The notes beneath the pieces were generated by a model. That model was not told the origin of the DNA. It saw nothing but the letters and a program-made list of their open reading frames with translations, and did no database searches. A stretch of 64,000 nucleotides of DNA from Microbacteriaceae bacterium PS02344 (GTDB taxonomy: Bacteria > Actinomycetota > Actinomycetes > Actinomycetales > Microbacteriaceae), in NCBI GenBank assembly GCA_029959905.1, contig JASCNZ010000001.1, positions 62,001-126,000 of the forward strand, written 5' to 3'. The stretch's first letter is position 1, and every line of letters starts with the position of its first letter. Positions 32,896 through 55,080 of the stretch are shown one piece after another. The translations under genes were made by a program, and so were the position numbers.

Positions 32896-33831
32896 TCAGA
32901 GGTAGGGCGTCAGGTCGATCTCCGTCGCCTCACGGCGGAAGGTGACGACCCGGCCGGTCTCGTCGATGCTGTCGACGGCGAAGACACCGAGGAACCGGTA
33001 GTAGGTGTCGAGGAACACCGGGTCCTTGAACTTCGCGAACACCACGTTGCGCATCTTGTCGTTGTGCGGCCCCGGCTCGCCCTGCAGCTGCGTCTGCGTG
33101 AGCGTCTCACCGTCATCGCTGAGGACGTTCTTCCAGTCGTTCCGGGGCGTGACGTGCTCCTGGTCCAGGCCCGGCATCCACACCTGAAAGTTCTCGCCGA
33201 GCGTGAACGTGGCCATCTGCCAGTGGGCGACATCCTTCCCGAACAGCGCGAGCACCTGGCGCATCCGGGGCATCTGGATGTCGTCGTCTATGGTGATGGC
33301 GCCTCGCCGCCGCCAATAGTCGGGGAGGTAGCGGTCCCCGTAGTTGTAGGGCGTGAACGTCCCCTGGGCGATGGCGTCGTCCTTCCACTCGCGGATGCGG
33401 GCGATGAGGGTGTCCGTCTTCTCCTTCAAGGTGTCGAGCGGGTCCGTGGTCGGCACCTTCAGGTGCACGAGGGGCTTGATGTCGGAGATGTCCAGGACCG
33501 CTTGCTCGCGGAGCTTGTCCGCCTCCGGGGACCCCTTGGCGAAGTGGTGACCTTCGTCGACTTCGACGCCGACCTTGAACTGCGGCAGGTACAGGTCCAG
33601 CAGCGCCATGCCCCCGTCAGGCTTGAGGACCGGCTTCTGGGTGACGAGCTCGATCTCCGGGTCGTCGAGCAGGTGCATGATGCGGCTCACCGCGTACACC
33701 TCGTACTTCTTGCCGCGGATGGAACGCAGCATCTTGCCGTAGTAGTCCACCTCCGTCGGCATCGCCCACGGCGTGCGCGTAGCCTTGCCGGCATCCTCTT
33801 CGACGGCGCTGTCTTCGATGGTCGTGCTCAC
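32896..33831 (-). CDS. PvuRts1I/AbaSI-type modification-dependent restriction endonuclease
   Basis: The 311-residue protein resembles the AbaSI/PvuRts1I family. The N-terminal Vsr-like nuclease part (about residues 20-150) contains VDYYGKMLRSIRGKKYEVYA, VTQKPVLKPDGGMALLDLYL and FKVGVEVDEGHHF, where Asp and Glu/Asp fit the catalytic site. The C-terminal third (YYRFLGVFAVDSIDETGR) corresponds to the SRA-like reader of modified cytosine. These enzymes cut DNA with 5-hydroxymethylcytosine or its glucosyl form, as found in some phages, and need no partner methylase. The GTG at 33831 is preceded by AGGGGG. A second, truncated copy lies at 39158-39907. Confidence 0.78.
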   Translation of the reverse strand: MSTTIEDSAVEEDAGKATRTPWAMPTEVDYYGKMLRSIRGKKYEVYAVSRIMHLLDDPEIELVTQKPVLKPDGGMALLDLYLPQFKVGVEVDEGHHFAKGSPEADKLREQAVLDISDIKPLVHLKVPTTDPLDTLKEKTDTLIARIREWKDDAIAQGTFTPYNYGDRYLPDYWRRRGAITIDDDIQMPRMRQVLALFGKDVAHWQMATFTLGENFQVWMPGLDQEHVTPRNDWKNVLSDDGETLTQTQLQGEPGPHNDKMRNVVFAKFKDPVFLDTYYRFLGVFAVDSIDETGRVVTFRREATEIDLTPYL

Positions 33832-39157: not shown

Positions 39158-39907
39158 TCAGCCCAGCAGTAAAAAGGGACAGTGAACTACCGATTCGTCT
39201 TCTGTTCCCCAGTGGGCGACGTCCTTCCCGAACAAAGCGAGCACCTGGCGCATCCGGGGCATCTGTGTGTCGTCGTCGATGGTGATGATGCCTCGGCGCC
39301 GCCAGTAATCGGGGAGGTAGCGGTCCCCGTAGTTGTACGTCCCCTGAGCGACGGCGTCGGCCTTCCACTCGCGGATGCGAGCGATGAGGGCGTCCGTCGG
39401 CACCTTCAGGTGCACGAGGGGCTTGATGTCGGAGATGTTCAGGACCGCTTGCTCGCGGAGCTTGTCCGCCGCCGGGGACCCCTTGGCGAAGTGGTGACCT
39501 TCGTCGACTTCGACGCCGACCTTGAACTGCGGCAGGTACAGGTCCAGCAGCGCCATGCTGCCGTCTGCCTTAAGGACCGGCTTCTGGGTGACGAGCTCGA
39601 TCTCCGGGTCGTCGAGCAGGTGCATGATGCGGCTCACCGCGTACACCTCGTACTTCTTGCCGCGGATGGAACGCAGCATCTTGCCGTAGTAGTCCACCTC
39701 CGTCGGCATCGCCCACGGCGTGCGCGTAGCCTTGCCGACATTCTCTTTGATCCCAGCACGCCGGTGGATTCCCGAGCGAATAACCTCCCGCTCCGGCGCC
39801 GGCATCATCAGCAGCGCGTCTCGAATGAGCACCCCGGCCTTCAAGGCCCACGCCGCAGCGCTTGGGGTTCGGCGAGCGTTGACCAAGCCCTGCCAAGGTG
39901 CTGACAA
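39158..39907 (-). pseudogene. Truncated second copy of the PvuRts1I/AbaSI-type endonuclease
   Basis: About 537 bp (39209-39745) is nearly the same as the 32896-33831 gene, from GKATRTPWAMPTEVDYYGKM to LALFGKDVAHW. It keeps the nuclease core (DLYLPQFKVGVEVDEGHH), but homology stops abruptly at 39209, removing the C-terminal modified-base reader; the frame continues into unrelated GTEDESVVHCPFLLLG. Two in-frame deletions are also present (12 residues in the PTTDPLDTLKEKT region, 2 residues before YNYG). The N-terminal 55 residues before the homology are unrelated, and the only start is TTG at 39907. It is probably a remnant, though a free nuclease domain cannot be excluded. Confidence 0.8.
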
Positions 39908-43010: not shown

Positions 43011-43337
43011 CTAGCGCGTGGTTACGTCAGGAAAACTGGAGGGAAGCAGTTCCTGGAGCGGCATGTCGAACACCTGGGCAAGCGCAACCAGACTGCGAAG
43101 CGTGGGGTTTGCCGCCTCGCCCGATTGGGAGATCCCGCGTTCGTAACGCTGATAGGTGTAGCGGGTGAGACCCGCGCGGAAAGCGACTGCCTCCTGAGAT
43201 AGCCCGCGATCAACACGGGCGCGATGGAGAAGAAGCCCCATCTGCGCAGCGGACTCCGCCCACGTCTGCGCCTTCGGTCCTTGCCTACCCACGCGCCAAG
43301 CCTTCCGAGAAAGGCGAGGTTGCATGACCTTTTTCAT
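43011..43337 (-). CDS. XRE-family transcriptional regulator
   Basis: The 108-residue protein has an XRE helix-turn-helix: LLLHRARVDRGLSQEAVAFR, AGLTRYTYQRYERGISQS, then LRSLVALAQVFDMPLQELLP. I chose ATG 43337 because a -10-like GATTAT lies 5 bases before it, suggesting a leaderless message; ATG 43325 is an alternative. It is divergent from the metallophosphoesterase operon and shares the same -10 segment with it, so it probably represses both itself and the operon. Confidence 0.8.
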   Translation of the reverse strand: MKKVMQPRLSRKAWRVGRQGPKAQTWAESAAQMGLLLHRARVDRGLSQEAVAFRAGLTRYTYQRYERGISQSGEAANPTLRSLVALAQVFDMPLQELLPSSFPDVTTR

Positions 43338-43373
43338 GTGGCATAATCGTCGATGTCGCGACTTAAACCGCAA
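43320..43373. promoter_or_regulatory. Back-to-back promoters sharing one -10 segment
   Basis: Plus strand: TTGCAT (43320-43325), 16 bp, CATAAT (43342-43347), then ATG at 43353, only 5 bases later. Minus strand: TTGCGG (43373-43368), 19 bp, GATTAT (43348-43343), then ATG at 43337, also 5 bases later. Both messages would be leaderless, and RNA polymerase could use only one at a time. Confidence 0.55.
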
Positions 43374-43850
43374 CACCCCCGACTGCACACGGTGGCGGAG
43401 CTCGGGGCCGAGGACGGTCGAAGAACGAGCGCGAAGACGGAACGAGGACTCGTGGATACAACACCGTCGTGGTGGCCCGCCGCCATCGAGATGCCGCCGC
43501 AGTGGCGAGAGCGTTTCGAAGCACTAACAGGCGACTGTCGAACGGACCGCGACGGCCGCAAGGTTGCGTACTTTGTCGCCAAAGTACGCAACCAGACGGG
43601 ACAAGGTCCGACGTTCGCAGAAGTGTTTCAAGAGCGGTTCGGCGACGACGGGCTCCACCCCGCGTGGCCGGCGAACATGAGCAACACTGCCCGCGCGAAA
43701 GTTTTAGCGCTGTTCCGACGCGACGTGGCGATCCAATGGAGGCGCGCCGGATGGGTGACCTGGGAACCAGGGGTACCCCGCAGCCTGAAGGCCGGCCCAG
43801 CCTTCTGGCACCGTGTGAAATCAAGGCAGGCTCGAAAAGCTGTCCGATGA
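43353..43850 (+). CDS. Hypothetical protein, first gene of the metallophosphoesterase operon
   Basis: The 165-residue protein has an acidic-to-basic N-terminal part and a conserved-looking core: SWWPAAIEMPPQWRERFEAL, RTDRDGRKVAYFVAKVRNQT, GPTFAEVFQERFGDDG and WRRAGWVTWEPGVPRSL. The C-terminus is basic (VKSRQARKAVR). I recognise no family; the Trp/Arg-rich end could bind nucleic acid. Its stop overlaps the metallophosphoesterase ATG, and it is probably translated from a leaderless mRNA. Confidence 0.75.
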   Translation: MSRLKPQHPRLHTVAELGAEDGRRTSAKTERGLVDTTPSWWPAAIEMPPQWRERFEALTGDCRTDRDGRKVAYFVAKVRNQTGQGPTFAEVFQERFGDDGLHPAWPANMSNTARAKVLALFRRDVAIQWRRAGWVTWEPGVPRSLKAGPAFWHRVKSRQARKAVR

Positions 43851-44842
43851 GATCCTTCGAGCATGCGAGTCGGATCGCGCTCCCCGACAGCCGGGTCGCT
43901 GTGTGTGGAGACTGGCACGGCAACGTTGGATGGGCGCGAACAGTCGCGCGTGTGCTTCCTCACATGGCGCCCAATGTAACGACCTTGCTCCACCTCGGCG
44001 ACTGGTGGATGCCACCAGAAGAGGTCGACGACGCGTTCGTCGAGACCGCCATCGACCGCATTCTCGTCACCCTAGGGAACCATGAGCCCTGGGGCGAGCT
44101 CACCCCGCTGCTCAGCGAACATCCCGGGTGCGCGGTACGCGTATCGAAGCTCGTCTGGTTCCTCCCACGACCCGCCCGATTGACCATCGGCGGTCGCCGA
44201 GTTCTCTCTTTGGGCGGTGCCGCGTCGGTTGACCGCCAATCGCGCACGGAGGGGCGGACCTGGTGGCCGGACGAGGCGATCACAGACGAACACGTTGCCG
44301 CCGCCATCGCCGGCGGCCCGGCGGACTTGATGCTCACGCACGAGGGCCCCGCCGACACACCCATCCGTCGCGTCCGGGAGATTCTGCGCACAAACCCTCA
44401 CCGTTTCCCCGCAACAGCACTCGAGTTGTCGGCGGCGTCACGCTCCCGAATCGCCAAAGTGTGGAACGCGGTCCGCCCTGAGCTGCTCACCCATGGGCAC
44501 ATGCACGTAGCTGCTGGCGGAAAGACCGACGACGGCCGACGGGTGGCGAGCCTCGGGCGCGATGCGCAGGAGGGGAACCTGGCGATCCTTGACATGAAGG
44601 CGCTGAAGATGACGACGCCCAGCCTCGCCGTGATCCGCGGTATGGCTGAGCAAGCCGACGTCGCCCGCGACTGGCGCGCTCGCCGCGTTGCCGAATCGCT
44701 GCACGATGCAACACTAGACGGACTCAAACCCACCTCCGCCGCTCTCCGAGACGCACAGGATTACATCGAAGGACGCCGCACCCTCGAGGAGATCCTTGAA
44801 GACGTCCGCCGACGCCACACCCGCAACCCGGCGCACGAATAG
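43847..44842 (+). CDS. Metallophosphoesterase
   Basis: The 331-residue protein carries the calcineurin-like set of motifs in order: CGDWHGN (residues about 20-26), LHLGDWW, TLGNHEPWG, LTHEGP and HGHMH. They form a two-metal site for phosphoester hydrolysis. A C-terminal helical extension (LHDATLDGLKPTSAALRDAQ ... RRTLEEILEDVRRRH) follows the catalytic domain. The substrate is unknown; nucleotides, nucleic acid or phosphoproteins are all possible. It is translationally coupled to the upstream gene and 2 bases from the next, so it acts within the four-gene set. Confidence 0.88.
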   Translation: MRSFEHASRIALPDSRVAVCGDWHGNVGWARTVARVLPHMAPNVTTLLHLGDWWMPPEEVDDAFVETAIDRILVTLGNHEPWGELTPLLSEHPGCAVRVSKLVWFLPRPARLTIGGRRVLSLGGAASVDRQSRTEGRTWWPDEAITDEHVAAAIAGGPADLMLTHEGPADTPIRRVREILRTNPHRFPATALELSAASRSRIAKVWNAVRPELLTHGHMHVAAGGKTDDGRRVASLGRDAQEGNLAILDMKALKMTTPSLAVIRGMAEQADVARDWRARRVAESLHDATLDGLKPTSAALRDAQDYIEGRRTLEEILEDVRRRHTRNPAHE

Positions 44843-44844
44843 CA

Positions 44845-45261
44845 ATGACCGAAGAACAGCCAAGCGCGTGGGCTGAGCACCTCGGCCCTTGCTACACGAT
44901 GGCGACCACTGCCCGGATCTTCGAGTGGACGGAGGACGAGGTCATCGAGGCGGGGAACGAGCTGCGCCTCCTCATGCTGCACACCGACGACGACGTCTAC
45001 CTCTTCCCGGTGCTTCAGTTCCGAAATGGGAAGATCTTTGCGCGGCTGGACGAGGTGCTTCATGTCTTTCAGAGTGTGGTTGACGACCCTTGGACCTGGG
45101 CGCACTGGATGACCCCGGCACTTCCCGAAGACCGCTCCCTTGAGACCCGGAAGCGGATCTCCGACGTGAAACTCGAGGTCGCGCTCCACGGCTCAAGCCA
45201 CAACTGGTGGTGGGTCCCCCAAGCGGAGACGACCGATGTCCAAGACCGGCTCAGAAAATGA
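44845..45261 (+). CDS. MbcA/ParS/Xre-antitoxin-like protein, paralogue 1
   Basis: The 138-residue protein has a layout recalling MbcA/ParS antitoxin-like proteins. An N-terminal helix-turn-helix-like part (GPCYTMATTARIFEWTEDEV) is followed by the strand/helix pattern LLMLHTDDDVYLFPVLQF, a central helix (LDEVLHVFQSVVDDPWTWAH) and a C-terminal PALPEDRSLET segment. In toxin-antitoxin pairs this fold binds a RES-domain toxin, but no RES gene is adjacent. The next gene is a clear paralogue overlapping by 3 bases. Confidence 0.65.
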   Translation: MTEEQPSAWAEHLGPCYTMATTARIFEWTEDEVIEAGNELRLLMLHTDDDVYLFPVLQFRNGKIFARLDEVLHVFQSVVDDPWTWAHWMTPALPEDRSLETRKRISDVKLEVALHGSSHNWWWVPQAETTDVQDRLRK

Positions 45262-45641
45262 CCGAGAACGAGGAGACAAACCCCTGGGCTGAGATCGTAG
45301 GCCCCTGCTACACGGTGGCGAGCATGGCCCGCATTCTCGGATGGACGGAAGTCGAGGTCTTGGATTCCGCGAGACATCTCCGCCTGCTCATGCTCCACAC
45401 CGTCGAGGGCACTCAGCTGTTCCCCTCATTTCAGCTCCGGGACGGAAAGGCGGTCGAAGGGCTACGAGATGTCCTCCGCATCCTCGCGACGGGGACTGCG
45501 AGTAGATGGACCTGGGCGCAGTGGTTGAACGTCGCGTTGCCCAATGAGGACCCGCCCCGCAACGTCACACTGCTCCACGAAGGACGACTCGAGGAAGCGC
45601 TGCGGAACGCCCGACACGATGCCTGGGCGTGGAGTTCCTGA
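45258..45641 (+). CDS. MbcA/ParS/Xre-antitoxin-like protein, paralogue 2
   Basis: The 127-residue protein parallels its neighbour: GPCYTVASMARILGWTEVEV, LLMLHTVEGTQLFPSFQLRD, LRDVLRILATGTASRWTWAQ, then LLHEGRLEEALRNARHDAWA, which fits the C-terminal antitoxin-like region even better. It starts inside the preceding gene's stop (ATGA). Two tandem copies of this fold next to a metallophosphoesterase suggest a heteromeric partner or regulator complex. The assignment is from pattern recognition and moderately sure. Confidence 0.68.
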   Translation: MTENEETNPWAEIVGPCYTVASMARILGWTEVEVLDSARHLRLLMLHTVEGTQLFPSFQLRDGKAVEGLRDVLRILATGTASRWTWAQWLNVALPNEDPPRNVTLLHEGRLEEALRNARHDAWAWSS

Positions 45642-53941: not shown

Positions 53942-54322
53942 ATGGAAACGCTTACCCCCACCACCGCTCACAGTCGCACCATGCGCATGGACATCCATGA
54001 CATCGTGCGCGAGCTCAACGCGGTTCTCGGGCCGACGCTGGTGGCGGGACTGGCCGGGTCGAAAGACCGCAAGCTCCCCATCCGCTGGGCCAAGGCCGAC
54101 GGGCCCGAGCCGCGATCTGAGGCGTCGAACCGACTGACCTTCGCACACCGGCAGTGGGCTCTGCTCGCGGCGGCCGACGGCGATCATGTCGCCCGGCAGT
54201 GGTTCATCGGAGGGAACCCGCACCTGCGCGAAGACACCCCGATCACTGCGATCCGCGAGGGTCGTCACAGTGAGGTCGCCGAGGCAGCCAAGGCGTTCAT
54301 CGCCGGGGCCGTCGACGCGTGA
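53942..54322 (+). CDS. Xre/MbcA/ParS-type antitoxin of a RES-Xre module
   Basis: The 126-residue protein has an N-terminal DNA-binding-like part (MDIHDIVRELNAVLGPTLVA) and the C-terminal antitoxin domain (LTFAHRQWALLAAADGDHVA, RQWFIGGNPHLREDTPITAI) that seals the RES toxin active site. A TAATCT -10-like box ends 6 bases before the ATG, suggesting a leaderless message. AGGGTGGC and AGGGTAGC repeats 12 bp apart just upstream could be its operators. The toxin GTG overlaps its stop. Confidence 0.85.
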   Translation: METLTPTTAHSRTMRMDIHDIVRELNAVLGPTLVAGLAGSKDRKLPIRWAKADGPEPRSEASNRLTFAHRQWALLAAADGDHVARQWFIGGNPHLREDTPITAIREGRHSEVAEAAKAFIAGAVDA

Positions 54323-55080
54323 GGGCCGAGAGGACCTGCACCGTCACCGGCCTCCGGCTCGTCTCGGAGTCGGCTGACGTGTACGGCTACCACGTCGGCA
54401 AGACGGAGTACCCGGCTCTGTCCGCTGCGCCGCGGCACGCCTCGGAGAAGTGGCGTCAGACGTGGGGGCGTTACGACATCCCCGGTCAGACCTTCTACGT
54501 CGCCGAGACGCGCGAGTGCGCGTACGCCGAAGTGCTCGCGTTCTTTAAGCGCGCCAACGGCGCCAGCGACAGCCTCGCGAAAGACGCTGAGTTCGCCGGG
54601 CTGTCGCTGGCGGAATACATCGAGGAGATCGCTCGGGAGTGGTCCGAGCGCGACTTCATGGGTCTCGGGGCTGTCCCGGCGGGCTGGCGCTATGACAGGG
54701 GCATCACACCCATCTCGCTTCCCGACCCGGGATGGCTCATCGACATCGAGCATCCCGACTCGATCGCCTACATCGAGCGCGAGCTCGAGAAGGTGCTCGC
54801 GGCTCATCAGATCTCGAGCCTCACGACTAGCACCCTCCGCAGCGAAGACCGGCCGGCAACGACGGCGATCGCGGAGTTTCTTCACGGCGTGACCCTCGAC
54901 ACCGGGACCACGCCTCTCGGGATCCACTTCGGCAGCAAGCACGGCGCCGCCTGGTGCAAGGCCGTCTGGCTGGACCACCCCGAGGCCGGCGACCTGATCG
55001 CGCTCAGCCCCGAGCCGATCCTCGTCACCGACGACGACCTCAAGCGCGTCGCCGACCGTTTCCGCACCCGCGTGTTCTGA
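54319..55080 (+). CDS. RES-domain toxin
   Basis: The 253-residue protein carries the RES domain: YHVGKTEYPALSAAP, the Arg-Glu-Ser-type stretch TFYVAETRECAYAEVLAFFK, GWLIDIEHPDSIAYIE and the late GIHFGSKHGAAWCKAVWL. RES toxins degrade NAD+ by hydrolysis or phosphorolysis and arrest growth. The usual central Ser could not be placed with certainty. It is coupled to the antitoxin (GTGA overlap) and followed 6 bases later by a third gene. It is longer than many RES toxins (about 160-200 residues). Confidence 0.83.
   Translation: MRAERTCTVTGLRLVSESADVYGYHVGKTEYPALSAAPRHASEKWRQTWGRYDIPGQTFYVAETRECAYAEVLAFFKRANGASDSLAKDAEFAGLSLAEYIEEIAREWSERDFMGLGAVPAGWRYDRGITPISLPDPGWLIDIEHPDSIAYIERELEKVLAAHQISSLTTSTLRSEDRPATTAIAEFLHGVTLDTGTTPLGIHFGSKHGAAWCKAVWLDHPEAGDLIALSPEPILVTDDDLKRVADRFRTRVF

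Follow-up and report, generated by a model that had tools for sequence, protein, structure and literature searches.

A metallophosphoesterase with antitoxin-type partners as a candidate mobile toxin-antitoxin-like defence module in Microbacteriaceae bacterium PS02344

Organization of the locus

The DNA analysed here, referred to as the window, is a stretch of 64,000 nucleotides from Microbacteriaceae bacterium PS02344 (GenBank assembly GCA_029959905.1, contig JASCNZ010000001.1, positions 62,001 to 126,000 of the forward strand), whose genome comprises 3.19 Mb. This report is concerned with a locus at 43,011 to 45,641 of the window that codes for a metallophosphoesterase (MPE) and a set of small regulator-like and antitoxin-like proteins. 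An XRE-type open reading frame (ORF) on the minus strand faces four plus-strand ORFs, which are gene 1, the MPE gene, gene 3 and gene 4 (Table 1). An earlier note on this DNA described the arrangement as an XRE gene opposite a four-gene operon, and the positions and all three couplings stand as claimed. Gene 1 and the MPE gene overlap by an ATGA at 43847-43850, the MPE gene is followed by gene 3 with a spacing of 2 bases (44842 to 44845), and genes 3 and 4 overlap by an ATGA at 45258-45261. The ratios of nonsynonymous to synonymous substitution rates (dN/dS) against the related locus L053 are low enough that all five ORFs look coding, and these ratios indicate that purifying selection acts on the MPE and on gene 4, with a higher ratio for gene 3. 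The ORFs of relatives, whose loci carry L numbers below, were obtained with a crude gene caller of our own.

Table 1. Features of the locus in window coordinates.
Feature	Coordinates	Strand	dN/dS against L053	Basis and remarks
XRE/Cro-type repressor (HTH_3)	43011..43388	-	0.13	PF01381, E 1.2e-10
-10-like box CATAAT	43342-43347	+		probable promoter of gene 1 and operon; conserved in intergenic alignment
Gene 1 (P0001), possible LexA-like winged helix	43452..43850	+	0.32	ORF from ATG 43353; GTG start by homology
MPE (P0002), with C-terminal VbhA domain	43847..44842	+	0.16	catalytic domain residues 16-221; PF00149 E 7.6e-11, PF18495 E 6e-9
VbhA antitoxin-like domain within MPE gene	44675..44815	+		residues 277-323; PF18495 36.2 bits (cut-off 25.9)
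Gene 3 (P0003), diverged extra copy of gene 4, C-terminal end altered	44845..45261	+	0.52	0.45-0.52 in three comparisons
Gene 4 (P0004), conserved antitoxin-fold partner	45258..45641	+	0.18	MerR/BldC-like helix-turn-helix (HTH) and Rv2175c/MbcA-like C-terminal part

The metallophosphoesterase and its VbhA-like domain

The enzyme encoded at the locus falls within the metallophosphoesterase superfamily, given that its PF00149 match lies above the cut-off and that all of the metal motifs are kept. These motifs, which we take to be D-x-H, GD, GNH, H and GHxH, do not vary among the 23 sequences aligned, one of which is that of the window. Among the PHROGs the MPE matches phrog_1649 (E 7e-24), and the closest solved relative by profile is an RNA lariat debranching enzyme, a weak match at E 8e-4.

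The earlier note overlooked an antitoxin domain of the VbhA type (PF18495) at the C-terminus of the same protein. This part is present at all 15 of the closest loci (window, L010, L011 and L053-L064), where it is fused to the enzyme in 11 and forms a separate small gene in four. The stand-alone VbhA ORF of L061 has the same PF18495 match by Pfam, and those of L062-L064 and, outside the 15 loci, of L216 were found with a profile of our own. According to PMC3667792, VbhA is the inhibitor of the Fic toxin VbhT, and the inhibitory motif (S/T)xxxE(G/N) was taken from that source. VbhA itself reads SxxxEG at this motif, whereas the window reads DxxxDG and its relatives mostly SxxxDG. Among 20 module-linked VbhA parts, a count that leaves out the poorly matching row of L013, the position of the inhibitory Glu is occupied by Asp in 19 and by Gly in one (L058), with Ser or Thr four residues before the Asp in 14 of the 19. 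All three VbhA proteins that have an adjacent Fic motif (L051, L052 and L210) have kept the Glu. Since the change from Glu to Asp is found in the module-linked copies and the Glu is retained beside Fic, this correlation suggests that the VbhA helix has been reused for another partner.

A VbhA-like segment could also imply a link to AMPylation, in which the segment docks in trans on Fic enzymes while AMP, a phosphodiester, is stripped from targets by the MPE. The known role of VbhA fits such a scheme, as do a single Fic match in the window's genome, located on another contig (C117), and a Fic-like motif at two distant MPE loci (L082 and L088). However, the Fic motif is absent from the window, L010, L011 and L053-L072, and the inhibitory Glu is replaced in precisely the copies that are linked to the MPE. 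We regard an antagonist of AMPylation as very improbable.

The MPE and gene 4 are conserved as a unit

The distribution of the genes was surveyed in two sets of genomes. Among 58 genomes of relatives searched at E 0.001, 7 gave a match to the MPE, 9 to gene 1 and 9 to gene 4, and in a genus set of 295 genomes searched at E 1e-10 the corresponding numbers were 43, 38 and 39. From the matches we tabulated 57 MPE places after setting aside 7 rows that matched the VbhA part only, and 25 of these are termed close, with an identity of at least 66%. Some of the 57 places are fragments or lie at contig ends (e.g. G122, G105, G124, G287, G023 and G067:C143), where absence of a neighbour carries little weight. 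Gene-4 calls rest on a profile of four seeds (window genes 3 and 4, L010 and L011), and the broad MbcA-like profile likewise included loci that were then scored with it (L010, L053, L056, L061, L066, L068, L072, L082 and L086).

Gene 4 lies within 3 kb at 21 of the 25 close MPE places and is directly downstream on the same strand at 20 of them. Both genes occur together in 22 of the 295 genomes, of which 28 have an MPE of at least 57% identity and 39 have gene 4; the hypergeometric p is 1.5e-17 with relatedness ignored. The MPEs of L053-L067, 15 loci that are all from Microbacterium, are 61-80% identical to that of the window, and on this ground we assign the window to the same genus. Up to three close MPE copies are found per genome. 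Of the 15 closest loci only L064 has no MbcA-like gene; among the 14 genes present, that of L055 is broken by a stop, that of L058 by a frameshift, and that of L056 is on the other strand. Gene 4 precedes the MPE gene in L067 and has the reverse orientation in L056, L066 and L068, and because it stays with the MPE despite such rearrangement the link goes beyond shared transcription. The MPE, its VbhA part and gene 4 are thus conserved as a unit with scattered occurrence. Co-occurrence of the four genes, which the earlier note named as a check, is borne out for this core and not for gene 1, which is present at only 12 of the 25 close places.

Gene 4 and its diverged copy

The two antitoxin-like proteins are paralogues of 42% identity with unequal histories. 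Gene 4 reaches 74% identity with aligned relatives, whereas gene 3 attains at most 49%, and this difference together with its high dN/dS marks gene 3, by these measures, as a fast-evolving extra copy. The earlier note envisaged a phosphoesterase that needs tandem antitoxin-like partners. A need for tandem partners is rejected, as the window alone has two intact copies among the 25 close MPE places. Separately, a broken remnant of gene 4 was seen at L049 5502-5861 (G022 C1:2874403-2874761), 15 kb from an intact module in the same genome.

Neither P0003 nor P0004 has a match in Pfam, NCBIfam, PADLOC or PHROGs, and the affiliation of gene 4 comes from fold and profile comparison. Structure models cover gene 1 and gene 4 as single chains. 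The AlphaFold model of gene 4, built on a 25-sequence alignment, has a predicted local distance difference test score (pLDDT) of 88, and Foldseek returned Rv2175c as the sole match below E 0.001 (6e-5). VIA-align places the model on the full-length fold of Rv2175c (2kfs; Z 13.8, 111 aligned, root mean square deviation (rmsd) 2.1), and the gene-4 family profile finds Rv2175c at E 1.5e-7. Chains of toxin-antitoxin (TA) complexes also appear, namely 6fkg_C of the MbcT-MbcA complex (Z 5.3, 83 aligned, rmsd 4.0), 8qnq_B and 8qnl_A of NatRT (Z 5.0 and 4.5), 6gw6_B and 9r35_R of RES-Xre (Z 4.2 and 3.5) and 8gug_C of VPA0770/0769 (Z 3.7), all six of which we take to be antitoxin chains of one family. 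They are ranked among MerR/BldC-type HTH proteins of similar Z. Having six such chains in the first 25 rows is suggestive, though Z near 5 is weak; absence of a family from these second-look fold tables does not exclude it.

The Xre_MbcA_ParS_C domain (PF09722) is found at E 0.1 or below in 4 of 25 aligned members, including L045, L047 and L048, among which three only L047 exceeds the cut-off, and it is found in neither P0003 nor P0004. Rv2175c_C (PF18367) matches one of the 25 members, which is not P0004. The gene-4 homologue of L045 adjoins a RES gene by Pfam (PF08808, E 3.4e-7), and in L206-L208 and L213 a homologue (profile E 6e-39 to 3e-30) adjoins a gene judged RES-like by eye. The neighbours in L046 and L048 are RES-like by eye as well, with Pfam giving nothing for that of L046. 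On the strength of these fold and profile matches, and of homologues beside RES genes, gene 4 is assigned to an antitoxin-like lineage in which Rv2175c is its nearest relative. The earlier label of MbcA/ParS-like paralogues had thus found the right neighbourhood for P0004 and was too narrow, with Rv2175c as the best match and MbcA at a Z of only 5.3.

That no RES toxin lies directly beside the paralogues is correct, the adjacent enzyme being of the PF00149 type, and a genome-wide RES profile search with a threshold of E 0.001 gave no match. An antitoxin-like gene overlapping a RES-like gene, the only one of this type noticed in the window and overlooked by the earlier note, does occur 8.3 kb downstream at window positions 53981-55080 (Rv2175c_C E 0.001, below the cut-off; PF08808 E 2e-4, just below it), and its RES-like gene was not reported by the genome-wide search.

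The XRE gene and gene 1 form an exchangeable cassette

The profile match of the XRE protein covers only 43014-43292, so that its true start probably lies inside the ORF, and in PADLOC this protein matches only models of HTH-type regulators. Gene 1, a family of 15 sequences, has no match in Pfam, NCBIfam, PADLOC, PDB profiles or PHROGs. Its AlphaFold model (pLDDT 83) has the LexA DNA-binding domain as the best Foldseek match (E 0.059, prob 0.98), and VIA gives a weak Z of 5.7 to LexA amid many winged helices of similar Z. Gene 1 may therefore be a winged-helix DNA binder, an assignment of low certainty that depends on the model.

A divergent XRE gene stands beside gene 1 in 15 of the 17 gene-1 loci scanned, the exceptions being L038 and L042. 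An MPE lies within 1.5 kb at only 15 of the 46 gene-1 places, and the four genes cannot be upheld as the single unit of the earlier note since gene 1 and XRE assort separately. Gene 1 of the window is 50% identical to that of L053 and of L011, and the latter two share 86% identity, whereas the MPEs of all three loci are 71-79% identical. Because gene 1 and MPE identities differ among the three loci, the sequence comparison indicates that XRE and gene 1 are a separate cassette that is exchanged independently of the core.

Other combinations of the cassette were also encountered. In L036-L040 the partner of gene 1 is a small Cys-containing protein family, here called X, either fused to it or encoded after it (an X profile matches in L038), and in L041 it is fused to what appears by eye to be an MbcA-like stretch. 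In L199 (9632-11423) a HAD-type protein (own profile E 1e-121) takes the place of the MPE after XRE and gene 1. In L198 (4243-6666) the order is XRE, gene 1, gene 4, a 306-amino-acid X-type protein and VbhA, with the MPE replaced; the X-type protein has a weak MbcA-type C-terminus (PF09722 E 0.004).

The start of the operon departs from what the earlier note proposed, which was a leaderless promoter shared with the XRE gene. The -10-like box is indeed conserved, being unchanged in 7 of 8 aligned intergenic regions (L063 has CAGAAT), although a scanner for the sigma-70 consensus called no promoter in the box region. The window's ATG at 43353 lies 5 bases 3' of the box and its reading frame is open, so that a leaderless start is possible in the window itself. 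However, the 60 bases after the box contain no in-frame start in any of seven relatives, and in four of them (L010, L011, L053 and L059) an in-frame stop just 5' of a GTG located 138-140 bases past the box rules out a leaderless start. A conserved leaderless start was consequently rejected. The window counterpart of that GTG in the intergenic alignment is GTG 43452, and homology points to this codon, rather than ATG 43353, as the probable start of gene 1.

L010 (9178-9317), L011, L053, L059 and L065 share a strongly conserved leader, some 125 bases long, from the box to gene 1; it is unrecognisable in the window. A structured leader RNA was considered and rejected, since the folds of the five relatives are not clearly stabler than shuffles (z -0.65 to -1.43; window +0.58), and an Rfam search of the operon region returned no match. 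A short upstream reading frame in this leader is possible.

Defence and mobility setting

The earlier note placed the locus in an island rich in nuclease genes, and a defence-type setting is supported both by the window and by genes beside some of the relatives. The window contains a PD-(D/E)XK nuclease gene, a gene for a PvuRts1I-like modification-dependent endonuclease (32896-33831) and, about 5 kb from the latter, a gene that reads as a shortened second copy of it (39158-39832). An XRE and IrrE-type peptidase protein at 49906-50877 matches the PADLOC model RmrA (E 8e-36). Among relatives, 8 of 10 neighbours match PADLOC models strongly, including an ATPase-Toprim type and two type I methyltransferases; the ten were hand-picked from nine loci, and the figure is not a rate. 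For example, a PD-T7-1 match (E 5e-135) lies 7 bases 3' of gene 4 in L059, and others are GajB (L067), Dsr1 (L066), E1-E2 (L065), LmuA (L064) and the type I methyltransferases of L069 and L214. The remaining two neighbours gave no PADLOC match (L061) and a weak one (L064).

Transposition genes are found close to both parts of the locus, with TniB (E 1.3e-19) adjoining gene 1 in L036 and a Mu-transposase C match (E 4.8e-10) close to the MPE in L056, and this proximity suggests carriage by Tn7-like elements. L037, L038 and L040 have TniB-like genes as judged by eye alone. Additionally, a protein of about 105 amino acids ('MGTSKRLAP...' in most) recurs near MPE and gene-4 loci, namely in L056 (7255-7578), L057, L062, L199, L200, L211 and L053, and the L056 copy has no Pfam match.

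Proposed function

We propose that the locus is a mobile TA-like defence module with the MPE as its enzyme, a reading to which we give an even chance and in which substrate, toxicity, partner binding, regulation and a phage trigger are all inferred. The MPE would hydrolyse a phosphodiester, be it of a nucleotide or of a nucleic acid, and would be held in check, or aimed, by its C-terminal VbhA-like segment and by gene 4. The C-terminal part of gene 4 would probably bind the MPE and its HTH would bind DNA, while XRE and gene 1 could act as the separate regulatory cassette that switches the operon. In favour of this reading are the linkage of the MPE to gene 4 and its persistence through rearrangement, the VbhA part, the RES-linked homologues of gene 4, the purifying selection on the MPE and gene 4, and the defence and transposition genes that adjoin some relatives.

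Several observations weigh against this proposal. The link between MPE and gene 4 fades with distance, from 9 of 16 places at 57-66% identity to 2 of 13 at 44-57% and 1 of 3 below 44%, and 29 of 65 gene-4 places have no MPE nearby. Seven of the 25 close MPE places have no intact adjacent gene 4, with none within 3 kb at four and a broken copy at three. In L055 (the coordinates of the G265 match) the sole gene 4 found has an early stop and the MPE is intact. No model of PADLOC-DB 2.0.0 matches P0001-P0004. A search of 50,697 phage records gave no match to gene 1, gene 3 or gene 4, and the 16 viral contigs that carry a relative of the MPE are all without an MbcA-like gene up to 3 kb from it. Finally, Bxb1 gp47, a relative of the phage protein Gp48, resembles the MPE only at BLASTP E 0.067 and hhalign probability 0.5%, with no HMMER match. 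According to PMC12287305, the metallophosphoesterase Gp48 of phage A10ZJ24 arrests mycobacteria through its motif residues, and this is a precedent for toxicity in the superfamily; toxicity of the Gp48 type by homology was rejected for the MPE, given that Bxb1 gp47 is not significantly similar to it. A dependence of the MPE on gene 4 supplied in trans was likewise rejected: six of the seven MPEs without an intact adjacent copy have another intact gene 4 elsewhere in the genome, which is not significant (p 0.12), and L055 contradicts it.

The same seven places also fit a reading in which the MPE and its HTH regulators are ordinary mobile cargo that travels together and has no defence or TA role. 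Gene 4 may be only a DNA-binding regulator, Rv2175c having been deposited as a 'conserved hypothetical regulatory protein'. Against such a view stand the RES-linked homologues of gene 4, the VbhA domain, the occurrence of as many as three close MPE copies in one genome and the defence neighbours, and we consider it unlikely.

A further explanation is that the MPE acts in nucleotide or RNA repair, or as an antidote, by cleaning up what toxins or phage defences leave behind, either phosphate ends or ADP-ribose phosphates, with the antitoxin-like proteins serving only in regulation. The enzyme does occur without a partner on viral contigs, and its nearest solved relative is the debranching enzyme noted above. 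HAD-type proteins adjoin several more distant MPEs, as well as gene 1 in L199, where one is directly 3'. Three of five such proteins (L013, L069 and L070) match PF18143, 'HAD domain in Swiss Army Knife RNA repair proteins', with E values of 0.001-0.008 that miss the cut-off, and the other two (L072 and L200) have no Pfam match; the broad HAD profile included loci that were then scored with it (L013, L069, L070, L072 and L087). Iyer et al. 2022 (PMC9503650) assign roles in RNA repair and ADP-ribose processing to HAD and calcineurin-like enzymes. However, no recurrent ligase or kinase was noticed in the operon by eye, no dedicated search having been made, and a pure repair enzyme would not explain the fused VbhA part. 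Repair or antidote activity is, in our estimate, an equally unlikely account of the locus.

An RNA or nucleotide substrate is our leading guess for the MPE, favoured by the debranching-enzyme profile match and by the RNA-repair-like HAD proteins beside distant MPEs. A conditional or non-addictive effector fits better than a constitutive poison, considering the partner-less viral MPEs, the lack of phage matches to genes 1, 3 and 4, and the close places without an intact adjacent gene 4, L055 among them. More tentatively, and on balance with some doubt, the locus may represent a new, combinatorial class of mobile TA or defence systems in actinobacteria. Such a class would have an MPE effector (perhaps a HAD or X protein in related cassettes), a VbhA part with Glu changed to Asp, an antitoxin of the Rv2175c/MbcA fold and an exchangeable XRE/winged-helix switch, with antitoxin folds of RES and Fic systems recruited to phosphoesterases. 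If this is true, antitoxin folds known beside RES or Fic can pass to an enzyme of another class, the metallophosphoesterases, and small VbhA and Rv2175c-like proteins that lack their usual toxins would be explained. It would also help to find TA-like defence modules that lack a recognised toxin, and would provide a role for a phosphoesterase family common to phages and bacterial islands.

Comparison with known systems

The open-access literature was searched for similar arrangements. We did not find a metallophosphoesterase joined with VbhA, nor with toxin-antitoxin and MbcA, nor with anti-phage and Microbacterium, and phrases such as 'phosphoesterase toxin' were not found among the matches listed. 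By term search, the words phosphoesterase, phosphatase, MbcA, VbhA and ParS are absent from PMC10440598, and phosphoesterase, calcineurin and VbhA are absent from PMC2701414, where RES-Xre is treated.

The MPE belongs to the same catalytic family as phage metallophosphoesterases (phrog_1649), and 283 of the 50,697 phage records contain a relative of it; Mycobacterium phage Archie gp47, for example, is 32% identical (E 3e-30). The phage enzymes differ in that no VbhA-fused form was found among these records, none of which covers 80% of the query, and in that phages have no gene-4 homologue. Gp48 of A10ZJ24 is also a metallophosphoesterase with a toxicity that depends on its motif (PMC12287305), yet its branch differs from that of the MPE as judged through Bxb1 gp47.

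With VbhA-VbhT (FicTA) the module has the PF18495 domain in common, either fused or as a small gene, but it has no adjacent Fic partner and reads SxxxDG or DxxxDG in place of SxxxEG. Rv2175c (2kfs) resembles gene 4 in its full-length fold and sequence profile, with an HTH and an Rv2175c C-terminal part, the difference being the MPE gene to which gene 4 is coupled. RES-Xre and MbcTA systems (6fkg, 8qnl/8qnq, 6gw6, 9r35 and 8gug) have chains that the C-terminal part of gene 4 matches at Z 5.3 to 3.5, and gene-4 homologues likewise adjoin RES-type genes. In contrast to these systems, the enzyme of the locus is a metallophosphoesterase rather than a RES protein, and gene 4 carries an HTH of the MerR/BldC type, with no PF09722 match.

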